Positions 7,641-63,149 of a stretch of DNA of 64,000 bases are shown here, piece by piece (within the stretch, counting starts at the first letter, position 1; every line of letters begins with the position of its first letter). The translations under genes were made by a program, and so were the position numbers. The notes under the pieces were generated by a model that saw only the letters and a list, made by a program, of their open reading frames with translations, searched no databases and was not told the origin of the DNA. Source of the stretch: Deltaproteobacteria bacterium GWA2_38_16 (GTDB taxonomy: Bacteria > Bdellovibrionota > JACOXK01 > 2-02-FULL-40-11); NCBI GenBank assembly GCA_001797335.1, contig MGPE01000008.1, positions 1 through 64,000 on the forward strand, read 5' to 3'.

Positions 7641-7657
7641 ATGGCATTGTTATTGCT
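7641..7657 (+). promoter_or_regulatory. Candidate sigma-54 (-24/-12) promoter
   Basis: ATGGCATTGTTATTGCT carries TGGCA and TTGCT with the required spacing (GG to GC 12 bases). Transcription would start near 7668. That is just before the in-frame ATG at 7671 and 54 bases before the ATG at 7722 of the caspase-like protease gene. Confidence 0.5.
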
Positions 7658-15340: not shown

Positions 15341-15361
15341 ACTTTAGAAAGGAGGATGATC

Positions 15362-16786
15362 ATGGCTATTGGAATGAAACAATCGTTAAAGATGACTCAG
15401 TCTTTGGTCATGACACCCCAGCTTCAGCAGGCGATTAAACTCCTTCAACTGTCACGACTGGAATTAGAAAACCTGGTTACCCAAGAGATGACGGAAAATC
15501 CTATTTTGGAAGAAGCCCAGGAACATGAAGACAGTGAAATTCGGAAACAAAAAATGGAAGAAGATGCCAATGCTTCTAAAGATGCACCTGAAAAAATTGT
15601 AGAAGGAGAAGATAGTTTTGACTGGCAATCCTATGTAGAAAGCTATGCGCCCGTGGCTCCTACCCCTATGTTGAAGGGAGAGGAAATCACGACCTTTGAA
15701 AATATTTTTACAAAAACCACAAACCTCCATGATCATCTCATGTGGCAACTCCAAATGACGAAAGTAGAGAAAGATCAAGAAAGAATTGCCTCGCTCATTA
15801 TTGGTAATATTAATGATGATGGCTATTTGAATACCCCTTTAGAAGAACTGGCCGCCAAAGAGGGATTTACATTGGAAGAGGCCCAAAAAGTTTTAACAAT
15901 TATTCAAAGCTTTGATCCGGTGGGAGTGGGTTCCAGGGATTTAAAAGAATGTTTATTGGCTCAAGCCCGACAGCTTAATTTAAAGGGCAATGAAGTAGAA
16001 CTTATTATTAAAGATTATTTGCATCACTTAGAAAAGAAAAATTATGCAGCGATTGCCAAAGCCCTATCTTTACCCATGGATCAAGTCATTGAACTTTCAA
16101 AAATTATTTTTGAAATGGAACCTAAGCCTGGAAGATCTTTTTCAAGTGTCGATACGCATTATATTACGCCCGATGTGTATGTGTACAAGATGAATGGTCT
16201 GTATGTGATTTCTTTAAATGAAGATGGTCTCCCCAGACTTAAAATTAGTAACTTTTATAAAAATGCATTGCAGGGGAAAGAAGCTTCATCGCTTACCAAA
16301 GAGTATATTCAAGATAAGCTGAGATCTGCTGTGTGGCTTATCCGATCGATTCATCAACGACAAAGAACCATTTATAAAGTGACAGAAAGTATTGTGAAAC
16401 ATCAAACCGCATTTTTGGATAAAGGGTTAGACCATTTAAGACCCATGGTGTTAAAAGATGTAGCATCAGATATTGGCATGCATGAATCAACGGTGAGCCG
16501 TGTAACAACCAATAAATATGTACATACTCCTCAAGGCATTTTTGAACTCAAATTCTTTTTTAATAGCAGCATTGGAAGAGGGGGCGACTCAGATGTAGCC
16601 AGTGAAACGGTGAAAGATAAAATTAAAAAGATGGTTGAAGCAGAGGATGTAAAACATCCTCTTTCAGATCAGCAAATCGTAGAGATGTTACAAGCGCAAA
16701 ACATTACTATTGCTAGAAGAACTGTCGCAAAATATCGAGAAATGTTAAATATTCTTCCGTCGTCTAAACGGAAGAAATATTTTTAA
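15362..16786 (+). CDS. rpoN: RNA polymerase sigma-54 factor
   Basis: 474 residues. Region I is the glutamine-rich activator-contact segment (LKMTQSLVMTPQLQQAIKLL). A core-binding domain occupies roughly 100-300. Then a helix-turn-helix (KDVASDIGMHESTVSRVTTN) and the RpoN box IARRTVAKYREML near the end, which reads the -24 element. AAAGGAGG lies six bases before the ATG at 15362; another ATG at 15356 is too close. It directs RNA polymerase to -24/-12 promoters and needs an enhancer-binding ATPase, none of which is encoded here. Several such promoters occur in this window, including one before this operon. Confidence 0.97.
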   Translation: MAIGMKQSLKMTQSLVMTPQLQQAIKLLQLSRLELENLVTQEMTENPILEEAQEHEDSEIRKQKMEEDANASKDAPEKIVEGEDSFDWQSYVESYAPVAPTPMLKGEEITTFENIFTKTTNLHDHLMWQLQMTKVEKDQERIASLIIGNINDDGYLNTPLEELAAKEGFTLEEAQKVLTIIQSFDPVGVGSRDLKECLLAQARQLNLKGNEVELIIKDYLHHLEKKNYAAIAKALSLPMDQVIELSKIIFEMEPKPGRSFSSVDTHYITPDVYVYKMNGLYVISLNEDGLPRLKISNFYKNALQGKEASSLTKEYIQDKLRSAVWLIRSIHQRQRTIYKVTESIVKHQTAFLDKGLDHLRPMVLKDVASDIGMHESTVSRVTTNKYVHTPQGIFELKFFFNSSIGRGGDSDVASETVKDKIKKMVEAEDVKHPLSDQQIVEMLQAQNITIARRTVAKYREMLNILPSSKRKKYF

Positions 16787-49979: not shown

Positions 49980-50738
49980 TCAGTCATTCCCCGACTTGAT
50001 CGGGGAATCCATGTATTTTTGGACGAGGGTGGTAATAAGCGTTACAATATTGGTACGGGCATCTGCTTTTTGAGGGGGAGCATCTTTTTCTTCTGAGGCT
50101 ACTTCCAGAAATTTTTCAATATAAAAATCATTAAATCCACCTTCTTCAAATGTCCATTCATGAGTGTCTTCTTTTTCTTTCCATTTTCCTTCGATGTTAT
50201 AAAAATGATCAAAATGGATAAAGAAATGAGCATAAATCGTATCAATGCTATTTTCTAAAGCGGCCATGTTTTTTTCTTTAAGTGCCGTTTTAAGAGCTTC
50301 TTGTTGTTCTTGAGTGAGAAGTGTTTCAGAAGTAAAAAAGTCTAAAATTTCTTTTAAAAAATGGGGTGTTTCTAGAATTTCGATTAAAGCGTTGTGGATT
50401 TCATCGGCTCTGTATTTTAAAGCAAGAGTATAGAGAATTTTTCCTACGATATCTTCTTTCCCGCCTTTTAAATAGGGTTTTAAGTGTTTCCAGTCGTAAT
50501 GAAGTTTAAGCACTTTAGAAAAGGCACCTAAAAAGAAGGTATTTTCGTAGGCTGTTTCGGAATCTTTGAGATATTGAATGGCACGAGATAATCCTGTGTG
50601 ATCGAAAAGTTCTAGTTCCATAAACCGTTCCAACGTGTCATCACCGTGTTCTTGGGGAGAACTTGGAGTGGGTTTTTGATTGCTACATCCCATAAGTGTG
50701 ATCAAGGTTAACAGGAATAAAATAAAATATTTTTTCAT
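49980..50738 (-). CDS. Lipoprotein of unknown function (third gene of the metalloprotease operon)
   Basis: 252 residues. Lipobox LITLMGCSNQ predicts lipid attachment at Cys18. The body is helical and acidic, with phenylalanine/tyrosine-rich segments (IYAHFFIHFDHFYNIEGKWK). No family recognised. The last ten residues (YMDSPIKSGN, D) are encoded by a dispersed palindrome (49983-50011). It lies four bases after the 1014-residue metalloprotease gene and probably works with it. Confidence 0.65.
   Translation of the reverse strand: MKKYFILFLLTLITLMGCSNQKPTPSSPQEHGDDTLERFMELELFDHTGLSRAIQYLKDSETAYENTFFLGAFSKVLKLHYDWKHLKPYLKGGKEDIVGKILYTLALKYRADEIHNALIEILETPHFLKEILDFFTSETLLTQEQQEALKTALKEKNMAALENSIDTIYAHFFIHFDHFYNIEGKWKEKEDTHEWTFEEGGFNDFYIEKFLEVASEEKDAPPQKADARTNIVTLITTLVQKYMDSPIKSGND
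49983..50011. repeat. Dispersed palindromic repeat at the end of a lipoprotein gene
   Basis: GTCATTCCCCGACTTGATCG followed by GGGAATCCA, arms GATTCCCCGA/TCGGGGAATC. Lies between two convergent genes and codes for the last residues of the leftward one. Confidence 0.8.
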
Positions 50739-50742
50739 CTCT

Positions 50743-53700
50743 TTAATCCTCTATATTTAAAACTCTACTTTTATAGAGTAATTGCAAAAGTCTAATTTTT
50801 TCTTTGAGGCCACCCATCATTTTTTTAGTCATATTGAGGTTTTGGATAGCTGCGCCTTTGGTTTCCAATTCTTTATTTCTCAGATTTGCAATATTTTCTT
50901 GTCTTTTTTCCAAGCCAGCCAAAATATCACTGGTTGTTAAATGTGCGAAAGGATCTGGAATAAATGCCTGAAGGGCATCTTTGCTTTCAACATCTAAGGC
51001 TGAAAGATCTTCAATCGGGAGGGCTTTGACTTTTTCTTCAATTTTTAAAATCTTAGTCAGTGCTTCTAATTGCTGAAGCAGGAGTAGGGAAATTGACTTT
51101 TTGGTCAGAATTTCTAAAGCCCGTTTTTTAGGAAAAAGCGTGATGGGTTCTACAAATTGAGCTTTAATACTTTTTAGGGTTTCTGGATCTAACGTAGAAA
51201 GATCTTCTCCTGAAAACTCTTCGAGTTTTTCCATAATTACGCTAATTTTTAGAGATTCTTCCTGAAGAGTGTTATAAACGCCCAAATCTGTATTCATCAG
51301 TTGCATATAGTCTGCATGGGTTTTAATGAGTTCATGAATAAGTAAAGCCCCAGGAGTGCCATCTAAAATTAAATGAGCATTTTTCTTAGCAGAAATGATG
51401 ACGGCTCTTTCTTCATCAACAAAGTATTCAAGAGTATTGGTTTGGGCTTTAATCCTACTTAAATTTTCTTTTGTGAGCGGGATTTCATCTATTTTAAAAA
51501 AGTCAATAATGTCATGAGAAGAAAATGTTCCTGACCGTAGATTATCTTCTCCGGGAACATTATTTAAGAGTTGATAGAGTGCATAAAAACTAATGAAGGA
51601 TTCTGAAGTGATACTGGCCTGTGCAAAAAGATTAAGCATGGGGATTTGAAATTCAAAAAGATCAAAGTAATTGGCTCTTTGAACATTCCATAGAGGAATT
51701 CCCACATGACGGGTGGTGAGAGATAAGGTAGCCAAGACTTTATCTAAGAGAGTTCCCCGAATCAAAATTTCGTGGTTGCCCATGTAGGGATGGAGCATGT
51801 CTTTATAAGGACGAGATTTGTCTAGTAATACTTTTCTAAAAAATTTAAAGGAAATGAGGGTGGCTTGATGAAGGTCTTTAATTGTGTTTCCTTGTTCTTT
51901 GAGAGATAAAGGTTCGCCTTTGATATCCATACCCGTATTTCGGATATGCATTTCATAATCTAAAAATTCACGAAGGGGCAAAAAGTACCGTTGGAGTAAG
52001 TACTGGAGATATCGGTCATTGGAACCGTCAGTATTTTTAAAATGGAGCCTTTTTCCTCGATTATTTCTTTTCTCATAGTCTTTCCAATAGTGAGTAGATA
52101 AATAGGTAGCAATTTCTAAAGCAGTCGTACCTTGGTCCCAATGATTACACAAAGGATCTGTGTGAGTATCTTCATCTGTGCAATAGAGGTAATTTTCTAC
52201 AATATCAAATTCCCCGGTGAAAGCGAAAGTCAGTGCGGCTTTATCATAGGGGCCAGGTTTTTCTTCTTCCGTGTCTTCTGGGGAAAGATAATCCATGGCA
52301 GAAGAGGTTTTGGATTTTTCAGATATAAAATGAGCTTTATCAACGGATCCTTTAAAATTATGTCTCAATCCTAAATTATGTCCCAATTCATGAACCAAAC
52401 TATCGGCAATCAATCTTTGAAAAATATCTTGGGATGTTAGGCCGTCTTTATACCATTCTTGAGGAGCTTTTTCTTCTGCGGGGTAATAGCATCGCCCAGT
52501 CAGATGGGTAAAACGATACAGCGCTCCTTTAAAAGAATGAGTATCGGTAGCTTGTGATAGAAAGTTTTTGTAAGAATAAGGAGAACTAATGACATCTTTT
52601 TGAATATCAAATGAGTTTTCATGAGATTCAAGACCAGAAAATTCAGATGTCTTTTTGGGGGTATTTTCTTTATCCCTTTCTATGTTTTCTAGGATGTCTT
52701 GAACTTCTTGTTTAAAGTTTCCGGCATAAATAAAGGCCGTAGCATTAACAATTTCCCCGGTGAAAGGATCCCAATGGAAAGGTCCATATCCTAAAAGACG
52801 ATTTTGAACGGGATCATCCAGCCAGGCAATAAAGTTATACCGAAGATCTCCTAATTCTTGCTCTCCCGTATTATCTCGAATTTCAAGAATGGGTTTTATG
52901 ACATTCCAATGTTCAAAAACTCGTTTGACCAGAGGCTTATAAGCGTCTGGAAAATTCTTAGTGAAGTAATAAATAATCTTTCGGGTGGGATCCCAGTGAG
53001 TGGCATAGTCTTCTTCAATGGGATTATTCCATTGATCTAGTTTTTTGAGGGTGGTTTTATAAAGTCCTACTTTATTTTGTAAGCCTTTAGAATATTTAAT
53101 GGGTTTAAAAGAAGGGTTTGTTTTTTTCTTTAAAAAGCTAAATTTAAGTTCAGTGGTAAAGGTATCTGCCCCTGATATGTCTCCACATTCTTCTCTTTCT
53201 CTGGCTGTGCGATAGGTTTTTAAAACATTCATGTTGAGAGAATCTGAATCTTGTTTTAGGTCGAGTAAATCAGAGCTGATTTCAGAAATGCAACCATAGG
53301 TTTCATAGAGTTGTAACATTAGAAAATCAGAAGGGATAATTTTAACTTTGGCAAAATTAATGTTGGCATATTTTCGTTCTTTCCAGGAGTGTTCGGTATC
53401 AATTTCAGCTTCGATATGGGTTACTTCATCATCACTATTTTTTTGGCGTTCAATATCTACATGCTTTTCAATAGGAAAAGAAAAGAGGGGCTCTTTTAAA
53501 GAATCATTTTCTTGATACCTGGGATCTACCAAGTATCCCGTTAAGGAATTTTGGGAGATAGACCATCGCATGAGGGATGTCCCAAAAGATTGATCTCCAA
53601 TAAATGAAGCAGAGGCTTCAGGCGAAGCACCCACCACAGTGACATTGTAATAGTAGTCATCGGTAGTAAACGAAGCTTTTTCAACTCGCTGGATTTCCGG

Positions 53701-53787
53701 TAGCACGTGTTTAATGGGGCGTTCTTTGGCACATCCCATCATGATTAAAACCAGCAAGAATAAAAGAGATAATTTTTTAAAATACAT
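50743..53787 (-). CDS. Large metzincin-type zinc metalloprotease lipoprotein
   Basis: 1014 residues. Lipobox LIMMGCAKER (Cys19). Catalytic motif HELGHNLGLRHNFKGS at residue 466 (HExxHxxGxxH) with a downstream Met-turn candidate SAMDYLSPED, as in the DUF5117/DUF4953 zinc-dependent metalloproteases. The N-terminal 400 residues are beta-rich (TDDYYYNVTVVGASPEASAS); the C-terminal 250 are coiled-coil-like. TAGGAG precedes the ATG, which lies 11 bases inside the end of the barrel-protein gene. Probably surface- or periplasm-anchored degradative enzyme, expressed from a sigma-54-type promoter with its two neighbours. Confidence 0.8.
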   Translation of the reverse strand: MYFKKLSLLFLLVLIMMGCAKERPIKHVLPEIQRVEKASFTTDDYYYNVTVVGASPEASASFIGDQSFGTSLMRWSISQNSLTGYLVDPRYQENDSLKEPLFSFPIEKHVDIERQKNSDDEVTHIEAEIDTEHSWKERKYANINFAKVKIIPSDFLMLQLYETYGCISEISSDLLDLKQDSDSLNMNVLKTYRTAREREECGDISGADTFTTELKFSFLKKKTNPSFKPIKYSKGLQNKVGLYKTTLKKLDQWNNPIEEDYATHWDPTRKIIYYFTKNFPDAYKPLVKRVFEHWNVIKPILEIRDNTGEQELGDLRYNFIAWLDDPVQNRLLGYGPFHWDPFTGEIVNATAFIYAGNFKQEVQDILENIERDKENTPKKTSEFSGLESHENSFDIQKDVISSPYSYKNFLSQATDTHSFKGALYRFTHLTGRCYYPAEEKAPQEWYKDGLTSQDIFQRLIADSLVHELGHNLGLRHNFKGSVDKAHFISEKSKTSSAMDYLSPEDTEEEKPGPYDKAALTFAFTGEFDIVENYLYCTDEDTHTDPLCNHWDQGTTALEIATYLSTHYWKDYEKRNNRGKRLHFKNTDGSNDRYLQYLLQRYFLPLREFLDYEMHIRNTGMDIKGEPLSLKEQGNTIKDLHQATLISFKFFRKVLLDKSRPYKDMLHPYMGNHEILIRGTLLDKVLATLSLTTRHVGIPLWNVQRANYFDLFEFQIPMLNLFAQASITSESFISFYALYQLLNNVPGEDNLRSGTFSSHDIIDFFKIDEIPLTKENLSRIKAQTNTLEYFVDEERAVIISAKKNAHLILDGTPGALLIHELIKTHADYMQLMNTDLGVYNTLQEESLKISVIMEKLEEFSGEDLSTLDPETLKSIKAQFVEPITLFPKKRALEILTKKSISLLLLQQLEALTKILKIEEKVKALPIEDLSALDVESKDALQAFIPDPFAHLTTSDILAGLEKRQENIANLRNKELETKGAAIQNLNMTKKMMGGLKEKIRLLQLLYKSRVLNIED

Positions 53788-54544
53788 AATTAACTCCTAA
53801 AAAAAGTTCACTTCCCTCGGCATCAAACAAAGCCAAATTTAATTCCTTTCCATTGTTTCTGTATTGCCTTCCTCCCGTTGAAAGTCCAAAAGAAGCCTCT
53901 ACTTTGGGAAGAAGGATATAGTCTATTTCTTGAATAAAAGAATACGTAGCTTTGGGGGTAGTATTATAGGTGGCAAAATTTAAAAGACTTAAAGCGGTAT
54001 TGAGATAGAGTATTTCTGAAAGTGCATAACCCAGGGTTAAGGTGTTGGTTATCCCATAGTTGAGGTTTGAAGCCTCATCTTTAGCCGTAATGAATCGATG
54101 AAGAAAATAACTTCCAGAGAGTTCATAGCCAAAATTCCATTTTAAATAATTTTTGGAAAGAGCAGTTCCTGTTTTAAAAGCCATGATTTCACTTTTGTCT
54201 TGGCTACTTTTTGATGTAGGAAGAAAAATTCTCATGAATCCATGTGCCGCGATCTCTGTTTGGGGATGAATGTAGAGATTAGAGCGATACGTTTCTAGAA
54301 CCATATCTTTAAAAAGAAGTTTTGCTTCTCCAGTAAATTCTTTAACAATTCCTAAGGACAAAGAACTTTTTAAATCTTCTGCCCAATGATACCCCCCCTT
54401 GAACGCTAAATCTGTGTAAACATGAGCATGATTTTTATTAACACCTGAAGCCAATGTATTGGAGGCTAAAAACTCTTGAGCAAAACAAAAAGAGGTTAAA
54501 AAGAGGCTTAATGTCATGACTAGAGTTAAGAAAAACACCTTCAT
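53777..54544 (-). CDS. Outer-membrane beta-barrel-like protein
   Basis: 255 residues from ATG 54544. Signal peptide FFLTLVMTLSLFLTSFCFAQ, then amphipathic strands with aromatic girdles (LTLGYALSEILYLNTALSLL), ending LFLGVNYVF with the terminal phenylalanine expected of barrels inserted by BamA. No known family. It opens a leftward operon with the metalloprotease and a lipoprotein. The sigma-54 site at 54558-54574 would start transcription near 54547, only three bases before the ATG; no ribosome binding site is present. A TTG at 54562 is a less likely start. Confidence 0.65.
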   Translation of the reverse strand: MKVFFLTLVMTLSLFLTSFCFAQEFLASNTLASGVNKNHAHVYTDLAFKGGYHWAEDLKSSLSLGIVKEFTGEAKLLFKDMVLETYRSNLYIHPQTEIAAHGFMRIFLPTSKSSQDKSEIMAFKTGTALSKNYLKWNFGYELSGSYFLHRFITAKDEASNLNYGITNTLTLGYALSEILYLNTALSLLNFATYNTTPKATYSFIQEIDYILLPKVEASFGLSTGGRQYRNNGKELNLALFDAEGSELFLGVNYVF

Positions 54545-54557
54545 GTTTTTATAATAT

Positions 54558-54574
54558 TGCAAGCCCTATGCCAG
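54558..54574 (-). promoter_or_regulatory. Sigma-54-type promoter, leftward half of a divergent pair
   Basis: Minus strand CTGGCATAGGGCTTGCA, matching the -24/-12 consensus core exactly, part of the 20-bp arm 54556-54575. Drives the barrel protein-metalloprotease-lipoprotein operon. Confidence 0.65.
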
Positions 54575-54737
54575 AGGATTTTTCTTGTTTTTATTGATGT
54601 TTTTTAGTTTGAAATACAAAAACTTCGTCGGTTGTTGCCGTAAATTGTCAGCTGATAGCTTAAAATGGGATCTTAAGAAATTTTGGGTTAGGTCCTTAAC
54701 TTCTTGAAATGAAATCACAAAAAGTCAAAACACTTCT

Positions 54738-54757
54738 TCTGGCATAGGGCTTGCAAT
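54738..54757 (+). promoter_or_regulatory. Sigma-54-type promoter, rightward half of a divergent pair
   Basis: TCTGGCATAGGGCTTGCAAT, identical over 20 bases to the opposite-strand arm at 54556-54575. Start predicted near 54766, leaving a 14-base leader with TAGGAG before the lipoprotein ATG. The 162 bases between the arms could hold shared enhancer sites; none was recognised. Confidence 0.7.
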
Positions 54758-54779
54758 TACTACACAGTAGGAGACACAT

Positions 54780-55601
54780 ATGAAAATAAATGCGCTTATT
54801 TTTTCTTTTCTCGTTTTAGGTATCTTAACCAGTGGATGTGGCAAAAGTTCAGAAGGCTTAGATCAAATCATCAATGCAAATAATCCCAACATTTCTGGTC
54901 AGAATCAGCCTGCTTTGGCTTTAACCCATGTGGCTTCTTTCGAAGGAAAAGCAGAGATTTTAACTATTTCGGATATTGTGGAAAAAGAAAAATTTTATGT
55001 GGAAAAACAAAAAATGGCATCAGAACTTCATCAATTAGAAAGTGATATTCAAACTATTTCTCAAAAAATAGAAGCCATCAAATCTGCCAATCCAGGAATT
55101 TTTGGAACCATTGTGAAGAAAATTCAAGATGTTTTAGGAATTGAAAAGAGTGAAGAACTTACAACGTTGGAATCGGAAAAAGAAAAATTGGTTAAAAGCT
55201 ATGAAGAAAAATCAAAAGCTTTTGCTGCTTTTAAAGAAAAACATGTGGCTTCTCTCATGTCTACTTTAAAGCTGTCTATTTATCAAAATGACGAGACCAA
55301 GGCATTTCATGGGACATTGACACTGGTGGATCATGAACAAGAACACATTATTTCTGTAGACGATATGATCTATGATTCTCAATCAGAAGCACTGTCTTTT
55401 TCATTTGTCTATAACAATAAGGATAATAAGCGGTATTCTTTTAAAAGCGATGAAGATCAAAAATCTCAAGATATTCTTAAAGATCAAAGTGTCATTGAGA
55501 TTACGCTTCGAGGAGACGTTGAAGTATCTGATAAAAACTCTATGGAACTTTTAAATGTAGGTCAGTTTAGCTTATCTCGAAAAATTCCATTGGTGCCGTA
55601 A
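54780..55601 (+). CDS. Lipoprotein, paralogue of the next gene
   Basis: 273 residues. Lipobox GILTSGCGKS. A central coiled coil (ELHQLESDIQTISQKIEAIK) and a C-terminal beta-rich domain. The last 100 residues match the lipoprotein encoded 200 bases downstream in pattern (LSFSFVYNN and VIEITLRGDVEVSDKN, against LSFSFKTGE and VILSGNIEISSKD), so the two are paralogues. No known family. It is transcribed away from the metalloprotease operon by the mirror-image sigma-54 promoter and has TAGGAG seven bases before the ATG. Confidence 0.7.
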   Translation: MKINALIFSFLVLGILTSGCGKSSEGLDQIINANNPNISGQNQPALALTHVASFEGKAEILTISDIVEKEKFYVEKQKMASELHQLESDIQTISQKIEAIKSANPGIFGTIVKKIQDVLGIEKSEELTTLESEKEKLVKSYEEKSKAFAAFKEKHVASLMSTLKLSIYQNDETKAFHGTLTLVDHEQEHIISVDDMIYDSQSEALSFSFVYNNKDNKRYSFKSDEDQKSQDILKDQSVIEITLRGDVEVSDKNSMELLNVGQFSLSRKIPLVP

Positions 55602-55704: not shown

Positions 55705-55721
55705 CTGGCATAAGGGTTGCA
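55705..55721 (+). promoter_or_regulatory. Sigma-54-type promoter of the second paralogous lipoprotein
   Basis: CTGGCATAAGGGTTGCA, core match and only two changes from the divergent pair at 54558/54738. Start predicted near 55732. A hairpin (CTGGACA, three bases, TGTCCAG; 55739-55755) would sit at the 5' end of the mRNA. Confidence 0.65.
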
Positions 55722-55738
55722 ACCTATGCCATCTGACT

Positions 55739-55755
55739 CTGGACATGGTGTCCAG
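55739..55755 (+). promoter_or_regulatory. Leader hairpin of the second lipoprotein mRNA
   Basis: Perfect 7-bp stem with a three-base loop, starting about eight bases after the predicted transcription start and ending 40 bases before the ATG. Could protect the 5' end or be an operator. Confidence 0.4.
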
Positions 55756-55794
55756 GGCGATAGAACGTTAGTTGCACGTACAAGGAGGTATGTT

Positions 55795-56631
55795 ATGCGA
55801 CGCTTAATTACAGTATTTGCTTTGATTGCCGCTTTATTTGTCCTGATGGGATGCGGTATGGGAAGCAAAGGAAATCAAGAACCAACCCCTAAAATTGGAA
55901 CTCAGGTTGTTCCAGAGCCAGTATCTTATAAAGCCCCTGCCGATGGTTTATACAAGGATGGTAACGGTGAAATTTTAGTGGCTGGCAAAACATTGACCGA
56001 CAAGGAAGGTCTTCTTGTTCAAATTTCTGAGTTTGAAAAGAAACTTGAAGGAATTTCTGCTGAAGATACAACGGCTAAAGAAGAAATTAATAAAGGAATG
56101 GATGCTAAGAAAGTTGAATTAGAAAGCTTAGTTGCTTTTCATTTAACCTCTATGAGCTTTTCCATTTCTCATGATGAAAATAATCAGTATCACATTGCTG
56201 ACTTAGCCATTGAAACAAAAGAAGATAAAGATGTGCCTGTGTTGGGTGAAGATGGACAGCCTAAGAAAAAAGAAAACAGCGAAGAAATTATGACAAAGAA
56301 AGAACACTATTTTGGAGATCTTAACAAAATTACTTTAAGTGATGTAGTTAGCTTTGATCCCGAAGTGGGTCTTTCTTTTTCTTTCAAAACTGGCGAAGGA
56401 GAAAGTGAACTTCTTTATACCTTTAAAGGTATAACATCTGAAGAAATGGTAGAGAAAGAAGACAGAAACTTTAATCGAGTCATTTTGTCTGGAAATATTG
56501 AAATTTCTTCGAAAGATGAAATTAAACAGTATGGAAAATGGTCAGTTTCTCAAGAAATTGAAATTCCTGCTGAGAAACCAGCCGAAGAAGCTCCTGCTGT
56601 TCCTCAAGAAGATACAGAAGCTGGAAAATAA
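55795..56631 (+). CDS. Lipoprotein, paralogue of the previous gene
   Basis: 278 residues from the ATG preceded by AAGGAGG. Lipobox FVLMGCGMGS; proline/glutamate-rich linker; short coiled coil (LLVQISEFEKKLEGISAEDT); beta-rich C-terminal domain (SMSFSISHDENNQYHIADLA) and an acidic tail (PAEEAPAVPQEDTEAGK). Upstream in-frame codons (from 55717) overlap the promoter and are not used. Same domain ends as its neighbour and nearly the same promoter, pointing to duplication of a whole promoter-gene unit. A strong terminator follows. Confidence 0.72.
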   Translation: MRRLITVFALIAALFVLMGCGMGSKGNQEPTPKIGTQVVPEPVSYKAPADGLYKDGNGEILVAGKTLTDKEGLLVQISEFEKKLEGISAEDTTAKEEINKGMDAKKVELESLVAFHLTSMSFSISHDENNQYHIADLAIETKEDKDVPVLGEDGQPKKKENSEEIMTKKEHYFGDLNKITLSDVVSFDPEVGLSFSFKTGEGESELLYTFKGITSEEMVEKEDRNFNRVILSGNIEISSKDEIKQYGKWSVSQEIEIPAEKPAEEAPAVPQEDTEAGK

Positions 56632-58086: not shown

Positions 58087-58371
58087 TTATTGTACAGATG
58101 GTAAATTGAAGGCAGCCACAGCTCCGCCTTTTTTGTGAGTGTCAGCAAGATCCTGAAGTTCTTTGGTTAAAGCTCTCATCGAAATAACATCCATGAGATC
58201 CTCTCCCCATAAGGCAATGGAAAGAGAAAAAGGGTCTTTTTTAACGGCTTCGTAATATTCAATGAGTTGTTCTAGTAATTCTGTTTTAGATAAAAGGAAT
58301 AATTTTTGCTTGGGCATTTTCATGTATTTGTTTTTTTTATATTCGTTCATGGAAATAACGTTGTTTGACAT
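58087..58371 (-). CDS. Small cytoplasmic protein under a sigma-54-type promoter
   Basis: 94 residues, charged N-terminus (MNEYKKNKYMKMPKQKLFLL), helical middle (SKTELLEQLIEYYEAVKKDP) and no membrane segment or signal peptide. Family unknown. AAAGGA about ten bases before the ATG. The gene has the best -24/-12 match of the window 50 bases upstream, so it is probably expressed under a specific signal. It lies opposite a PilZ protein gene. Confidence 0.6.
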   Translation of the reverse strand: MSNNVISMNEYKKNKYMKMPKQKLFLLSKTELLEQLIEYYEAVKKDPFSLSIALWGEDLMDVISMRALTKELQDLADTHKKGGAVAAFNLPSVQ

Positions 58372-58678
58372 AGTGAATAAGTCCTTTTTATGTTTAGGGG
58401 AGAACCAAGTCGAAAGAAGGTTGGAGCAACTTTTGTGCCAGACTAAAAAGAAGGCATATTATTTTATAAGTACTTGATTTTATTTAATAATTTAAAATTC
58501 CCCCTTTTTACTAGTGATGGTGAAATGTTGTTTAAAAAACAAGCACTGACAAACACTTAAACAAAAGGGTTGCATTCATAAAAGCCGATATGGTAAATTC
58601 CTTCCAAGCACTTTTTTATCGTGAAAAAGTGTAGTAGTTGCGGTAATCTTTAAGCAGTATTGGTAGAGGAGATAGGCG
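58372..58678. other. 307-base divergent intergenic region
   Basis: Holds the leftward sigma-54 site (58425-58441), a palindrome TTGTTT-AAA-AAACAA (58528-58542) that could be an activator site, a weak rightward TTGCAT-18-TAAATT (58570-58599), and an 8-bp hairpin CACTTTTT/AAAAAGTG (58609-58631) before the PilZ gene. No gene seen. Confidence 0.5.
58425..58441 (-). promoter_or_regulatory. Sigma-54-type promoter of the small 94-residue protein
   Basis: Minus strand CTGGCACAAAAGTTGCT: matches the consensus YTGGCAC-N5-TTGCW at every core base including the C after GGCA. Start predicted near 58414, leader of 43 bases. Confidence 0.7.
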
Positions 58679-62112: not shown

Positions 62113-62174
62113 TTGACAAAAGCATTTTTTTAGCATAAAAGAGCCTACCTTTGAAAGATGGCATGGCTTTTGCG
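62113..62174 (+). promoter_or_regulatory. Two overlapping promoter candidates of the outer-membrane protein
   Basis: A sigma-70-like TTGACA (62113-62118) with CATAAA at 15 bases, and a -24/-12 core ATGGCATGGCTTTTGCG (62158-62174) predicting a start near 62185. The latter also forms a near-perfect hairpin (TGGCATGGC, TTTT, GCGATGCCA), so it might instead be a leader structure of the sigma-70 transcript. Confidence 0.4.
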
Positions 62175-62234: not shown

Positions 62235-63149
62235 ATGAAAAAGTATGTGGTATTTAGTTTCTTAATGATTGTGGGCTTAGTAAGCTCCTCAGTGTATGCT
62301 TTGCATCCTGGATCTACAACGTCTAAGGAGCAACCAGTGGCTCCTCAAGCAAGTGCTCCAGTAGCTACTTCTCAAGCTGCTGTTCCCGAGGTTAAAAGTC
62401 CTTGGTCTGGCTCTGTTAAAATTGAAATGGAAAGATCTACGGATAAAAAACCTTTAGCAGCATTAAAAAATAGAACCAGCGTAACTTTAGGAAGAACATT
62501 GTTTGATGATGTAAGTGTAAACTTAGCTATTCTTTTAGATAATAAGTTTACAGCAGATACTGCTAAACAGGGAGTTAATCGATACTTTACGACAAAAGAT
62601 CCATTGTTGTATGTCAGTAAAGGCAAGGTAGCAGAAGTTCTAGGGATAAATATCTCAGCAGCGCCTTTCCAAGTTTGGTTACCCATCACAGAAAATAGCA
62701 GACGTAATGGTGATGAAAGAAATCCCCATAATGGGATTTATCGTTCTGCAATTCTTTTAACAAAAGATATTGGAGCGTGGTCATTGGCTTCTTTAAATCG
62801 TGTTTCTTATTTTAATTATCGGAGACAATTTTCTGCAGATGGTTCAGAAAATGCTCGTTTTGGGATGCTCAATGAGTTAGCTGCTTCTTATAAATTATCG
62901 GAAGTTGTGGCTTTATCTTCTGTGGTTGATTTTGTAAGTGTTGAAAGTCGAGATCTTGGAAAGACAGCACTGGATTCTACCTTAGAATGGTCACCTTCTC
63001 TAGATTTAACGCCGGCACAGAATTTGGAAGTTTCTTTAGGAGTCACATTAACAGCTCCTAATAAAACTCCTCGTCGATATTGGGAAAGTGCTGAGTCTCG
63101 AATTGCTAATACGAGCAGTGGATTAGTAGTCAGTTATAAATTCCTTTAA
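62235..63149 (+). CDS. Outer-membrane beta-barrel-like protein with Ala/Pro-rich linker
   Basis: 304 residues. Signal peptide (VFSFLMIVGLVSSSVYALHP), a short alanine/proline linker (PVAPQASAPVATSQAAVPEV), then a barrel-like region of alternating strands (VSVNLAILLDN, LNRVSYFNYRRQFS, NLEVSLGVTLTAPN) ending LVVSYKFL. No family recognised. AGGAGG precedes the ATG. A palindromic repeat and a strong terminator follow. A likely highly expressed envelope protein. Confidence 0.65.
   Translation: MKKYVVFSFLMIVGLVSSSVYALHPGSTTSKEQPVAPQASAPVATSQAAVPEVKSPWSGSVKIEMERSTDKKPLAALKNRTSVTLGRTLFDDVSVNLAILLDNKFTADTAKQGVNRYFTTKDPLLYVSKGKVAEVLGINISAAPFQVWLPITENSRRNGDERNPHNGIYRSAILLTKDIGAWSLASLNRVSYFNYRRQFSADGSENARFGMLNELAASYKLSEVVALSSVVDFVSVESRDLGKTALDSTLEWSPSLDLTPAQNLEVSLGVTLTAPNKTPRRYWESAESRIANTSSGLVVSYKFL

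Follow-up and report, generated by a model that had tools for sequence, protein, structure and literature searches.

What is the role of two exact copies of a 20-base sequence (TCTGGCATAGGGCTTGCAAT) that stand in inverted orientation between a leftward operon and a rightward lipoprotein gene, and does their mirror-image identity carry any meaning? The copies lie in the genome of Deltaproteobacteria bacterium GWA2_38_16 (G000), within a window of 64,000 nucleotides (contig MGPE01000008.1, positions 1 to 64,000), which is the whole stretch of DNA analysed. A preliminary description had placed exact inverted copies at 54556-54575 (minus strand) and 54738-54757 (plus strand), spaced by 162 bases, and all of these particulars proved correct. 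Its claim of a complete -24/-12 core in both copies also stands, TGGCATA-N4-TTGCA being present in each. The features that surround the pair are as follows.

49980-50738, minus strand: lipoprotein, third gene of the left operon
50743-53787, minus strand: Met-zincin metalloprotease lipoprotein (DUF4953), second gene of the left operon
53777-54544, minus strand: predicted outer-membrane protein (OMP) bearing a signal peptide; its gene opens the left operon and has its stop codon at 53777-53779
54556-54575, minus strand: putative left sigma-54 promoter (20-base copy), core TGGCATAGGGCTTGCA at 54573-54558, predicted +1 at 54547
54576-54737, no strand: 162-bp gap, without a supported activator site
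54738-54757, plus strand: putative right sigma-54 promoter (identical copy), core at 54740-54755, predicted +1 at 54766
54780-55601, plus strand: lipoprotein 1, the right-hand gene
55795-56631, plus strand: lipoprotein 2

The best explanation, to which a probability of about 0.75 is assigned, is a divergent pair of sigma-54 promoters belonging to a regulon of ~75 sites that mostly serve exported proteins. The left promoter would drive the OMP/Met-zincin protease/lipoprotein operon leftward and the right promoter the lipoprotein gene rightward, and sigma-54 RNA polymerase would sit poised at both cores, with melting of the DNA left to an enhancer-binding protein. The left mRNA would begin ~3 nt before the AUG, being leaderless and devoid of a Shine-Dalgarno sequence, and the right mRNA would carry a 14-nt leader with AGGAG; the identity of the two promoters would have arisen by local copying. 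The anatomy is that of an ordinary divergent sigma-54 pair, and what raises its interest is that it illustrates both leader classes.

The reading of the left and right sites as genuine back-to-back sigma-54 promoters is well supported, since the genome encodes one rpoN together with enhancer-binding proteins, seven of them complete and two further ones divergent, contains 77 matches to TGGCAYN5TTGCW versus 1 for a reversed-pattern control, and has relatives in which such sites lie upstream of the OMP gene. The core in both copies conforms to the -24/-12 consensus with the standard GG/GC spacing (10 bases between). Sequence statistics thus show the predicted sites as a class, and the other genomes of the family contain 42-77 such sites; 75 of the 77 were analysed through their surrounding stretches, those at positions 7642 and 13571 of the window being left out. 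The sole sigma-54 gene found in the genome and two further nearby sites are located in the window as follows.

15356-16786, plus strand: rpoN, with AID, core-binding and DNA-binding domains all present
55706-55721, plus strand: third putative sigma-54 site (TGGCATAAGGGTTGCA), upstream of lipoprotein 2, with a 63-nt leader
58425-58440, minus strand: fourth nearby putative sigma-54 site, upstream of a small ORF (58087-58371)

The preliminary description was thus right to see RpoN-type promoters that diverge towards an operon for exported proteins on one side and a lipoprotein gene on the other, although the operon opens with the OMP and not with the protease, whose gene overlaps the OMP gene by 11 bases. 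The OMP has no Pfam, NCBIfam or PDB match and no relatives in phage records, and its homologues are present across the phylum; in several families they are preceded by sigma-54-like sites, and in relatives the Met-zincin protease gene often follows. A search of a wider contig collection with the protease gave no match, and no Rfam family matched in the region. Lipoprotein 1 is an orphan, without relatives among 58 other genomes and with weak similarity to lipoprotein 2. The latter and its homologues share related cores (TGGCATNNGGGTTGCA), and sigma-54-like sites lie upstream of the homologues in G001, G004 and G005. There the leaders are 60 nt long and contain a conserved AACGT stretch as well as a hairpin that matches the one in the lipoprotein 2 leader (window 55732-55794), some of the changes being paired; it is possible that this segment is a regulatory leader. 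An OMP paralogue is also encoded in the window (gene matched at 62733-63044), with a near-consensus sigma-54 site (TGGCATGGCTTTTGCG) at about 62159-62174 and a predicted leader of 50 nt to the ATG.

The preliminary description further proposed that one activator, bound within the 162-bp gap, could switch both promoters together. The gap is of a size that suits an enhancer site serving both directions, several of the enhancer-binding proteins encoded in the genome have Fis-type HTH domains, and divergent sigma-54 pairs recur in the family, one of them (L084:2073-2342 and L274:1201-1471, flanked on either side by orthologous genes for large exported proteins) being kept between G000 and G001, with gaps of 238 and 239 bp respectively. 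However, the sequence of the gap lends the proposal no support: a palindromic candidate near 54641-54662 is well placed, yet 59% of shuffles reach the best palindrome of the gap, and no upstream motif common to the gap and the other sigma-54 promoters emerged from dyad and 8-mer enrichment over the 75 sites, which returned A/T runs and a single dispersed cassette that is absent from the gap. When the region was aligned with relatives, as the preliminary description had suggested, the divergent sigma-54 arrangement was found again in the sister genus G003, but little of the gap aligns beyond the promoter, the G003 region consisting partly of masked bases. A shared activator site in these 162 bases is therefore regarded as rather unlikely.

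The features that distinguish the two halves of the preferred divergent pair lie downstream of the cores. The distance from the C of the GC to the ATG (taken as the first suitable ATG) is 15 nt on the left and 26 nt on the right, and this difference behind the same core is what predicts a leaderless left mRNA and a right mRNA with a 14-nt AGGAG leader. If +1 is assumed to lie 12 nt downstream of the C in the -12 element GC, an assumption in which a shift of a few nucleotides would alter the exact leader length, transcription from the left promoter would start at 54547 and give the OMP ATG a 3-nt leader, and that from the right promoter would start at 54766, ahead of AGGAG (54769-54773) and the ATG at 54780. 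Only AATATTATAAAAACATG separates the left core from the AUG start, with no Shine-Dalgarno sequence, and the left promoter occupies the very position where a ribosome-binding site would be needed, a point that had previously been missed. Identical promoters are accordingly paired here with both predicted leader classes: the OMP/protease operon would have the short one, of 3 nt, and the lipoprotein gene the longer one, of 14 nt and with a Shine-Dalgarno sequence.

The OMP gene of G003 retains the 3-nt predicted leader, whereas the homologues in most other families have leaders of 15-50 nt, so that the short leader is not conserved across the phylum. These longer leaders might suggest that the left site makes no leaderless mRNA at all, the OMP gene being transcribed from elsewhere or its true start codon lying further in, with the site playing some other part, such as that of a roadblock; in Salmonella, ChIP has located many sigma-54 sites at unusual positions (PMC3844500). 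Against this alternative, which appears improbable, stand the good signal peptide that begins at the first ATG of the OMP, the retention of the short spacing in G003, and the recurrence of the same core-ATG spacing, which 25 genes of this genome share and which four other genomes show as well.

That recurrence, and with it the leaderless reading of the left mRNA, is best judged from the distribution of predicted leaders behind sigma-54 sites. In G000, 25 genes have leaders of 1-7 nt, none of 8-10 nt and 29 of 11-35 nt. A Shine-Dalgarno sequence is found in 2 of the 25 short-leader genes versus 26 of the 29 with longer leaders, a contrast that is partly forced, as such a motif would not fit into a very short leader; independent evidence for the split comes from the short-leader peak together with the thin 8-10 interval. 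The same split is seen in the sister genera G003 and G001 (17 and 15 genes in the short class; 3 and 2 at 8-10 nt), and in each of these genomes the short class is larger than a uniform distribution would give (p = 5e-10 for G000, 7e-7 for G003 and 7e-4 for G001), statistics that show the predicted spacing classes. A cluster at 2-6 nt occurs likewise in G006, of the same class, and in G042, of another family; no short-leader case occurred among the ten G002 sites examined. By similarity of its PhoH, G000 is itself Bdellovibrionota-like, the best matches being Bdellovibrionota-like MAGs at ~60% identity; in the loci of these MAGs, and in those of Desulfuromonadia and Myxococcota, sigma-54 sites are too few for an outgroup test of the leaders. 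On balance, we lean slightly towards the view that Bdellovibrionota maintain a standing class of sigma-54 promoters set against the start codon, which would yield activator-dependent leaderless mRNAs for exported proteins, and in which a shift of the core by ~10 bases would switch a gene between leaderless and Shine-Dalgarno translation. Among genes in the window and at the other G000 loci sampled that have neither a Shine-Dalgarno sequence nor a sigma-54-like site, TANNNT starting at -15 is in excess (12 vs 2.7 per position). This excess hints that sigma-70 serves some leaderless genes with a comparable 3-nt leader, and leaderless expression may therefore extend beyond sigma-54.

The mirror-image identity of the pair calls for a separate explanation. 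Among the 75 analysed sites, 7 identical 20-base pairs were seen versus 0.01 expected from position frequencies; the other 6 have CCCC-type flanks and lie almost all inside the single dispersed cassette. Identity by chance is thus unlikely for the present pair, even within the set of predicted sigma-54 sites. No third copy of TCTGGCATAGGGCTTGCAAT with up to 3 mismatches occurs in the window (0.02 expected by shuffling) or across the whole 2.0 Mb genome, and no longer perfect inverted repeat surrounds the copies, the identity of the arms falling to 81% when they are stretched to 37 nt. In G003, where the OMP gene again lies opposite a lipoprotein gene with two sigma-54 sites in the gap, the cores differ (TGGCATTGCTCTTGCA vs TGGCATACCCCTTGCA), so that identity is not needed for the divergent arrangement. 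Contrary to the significance first attached to it, the mirror-image identity, as judged from these comparisons, is a local feature, and its most likely origin is that one promoter was recently copied or converted locally, not that a mirror structure is required. The idea that the copies delimit an invertible or mobile segment, their likeness to promoters being incidental, is suggested by exact 20-bp inverted repeats bracketing 162 bp, but it is very improbable, given the lack of any further genomic copy of TCTGGCATAGGGCTTGCAAT, the non-identical copies in G003 that both keep a sigma-54 core, and the fact that inversion between the repeats would alter neither promoter.

The genes behind the sites are rich in exported products: signal-peptide proteins or lipoproteins are encoded by 42 of the 52 genes behind sites versus 71 of the 162 other genes sampled (p = 3e-6), a comparison made with a crude predictor and with genes that themselves lie near sigma-54 sites. 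The dispersed cassette is ~70 bp long and comprises a terminator-like hairpin (GGACGGTTTTCCGTCC), a T run and a palindrome (TTTGAGCTCAAA), followed at a constant distance by a CCCCTGGCAC-type sigma-54 promoter, which often precedes a small ORF. There are 14 genomic copies of the hairpin, most of them joined to a CCCCTGGCAC-type promoter, and the cassette sites are L058:5322, L060:4763, L066:1947, L070:2003, L077:1930(-), L078:2021, L081:2024, L086:1993(-), L088:1988 and L091:2021.

The predicted promoters resemble known sigma-54 (RpoN) -24/-12 promoters in their consensus core, in the 10 bases between GG and GC, and in the accompanying rpoN and enhancer-binding proteins; they differ from the usual ones in that about one third of the sites lie near enough to an ATG for a predicted leader of 1-7 nt, and in a regulon rich in exported proteins. 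The attack-phase regulon of Bdellovibrio bacteriovorus (PMC3627812), in the same phylum, likewise joins an alternative sigma factor to surface proteins and proteases, but that factor is FliA (sigma-28) instead of sigma-54, and leader classes are not discussed in the parts of that report consulted. In the leaderless mRNAs of Deinococcus-Thermus (PMC12340547), as at the left promoter, a promoter element lies a few bases before the ORF with no Shine-Dalgarno sequence; there, however, it is a -10 element of sigma-70 type adjoining the ORF, whereas the promoter here would be of sigma-54 type and require an activator. The leaderless mRNAs of Campylobacter jejuni (PMC3847290) and Bradyrhizobium japonicum (PMC4842269) also have an ATG start and lack a Shine-Dalgarno sequence, but they are tied to sigma-70-type -10 motifs, sigma-54 promoters being reported separately; according to the Bradyrhizobium study, specific promoters have not been described for leaderless genes (PMC4842269). 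Elsewhere, sigma-54 promoters and leaderless genes have been treated apart (PMC3616915, PMC5243855), and the open-access papers searched nowhere describe sigma-54 leaderless genes as a regular class, whether for exported proteins or in general. Leaderless mRNAs are usually linked to sigma-70-type promoters; a sigma-54 class, if true, would connect leaderless translation with genes under activator control and tight switching, which here encode outer-membrane proteins, lipoproteins and proteases of a phylum known to include predators, and the present pair, with a single promoter sequence and two predicted leader types, would constitute a natural matched test.
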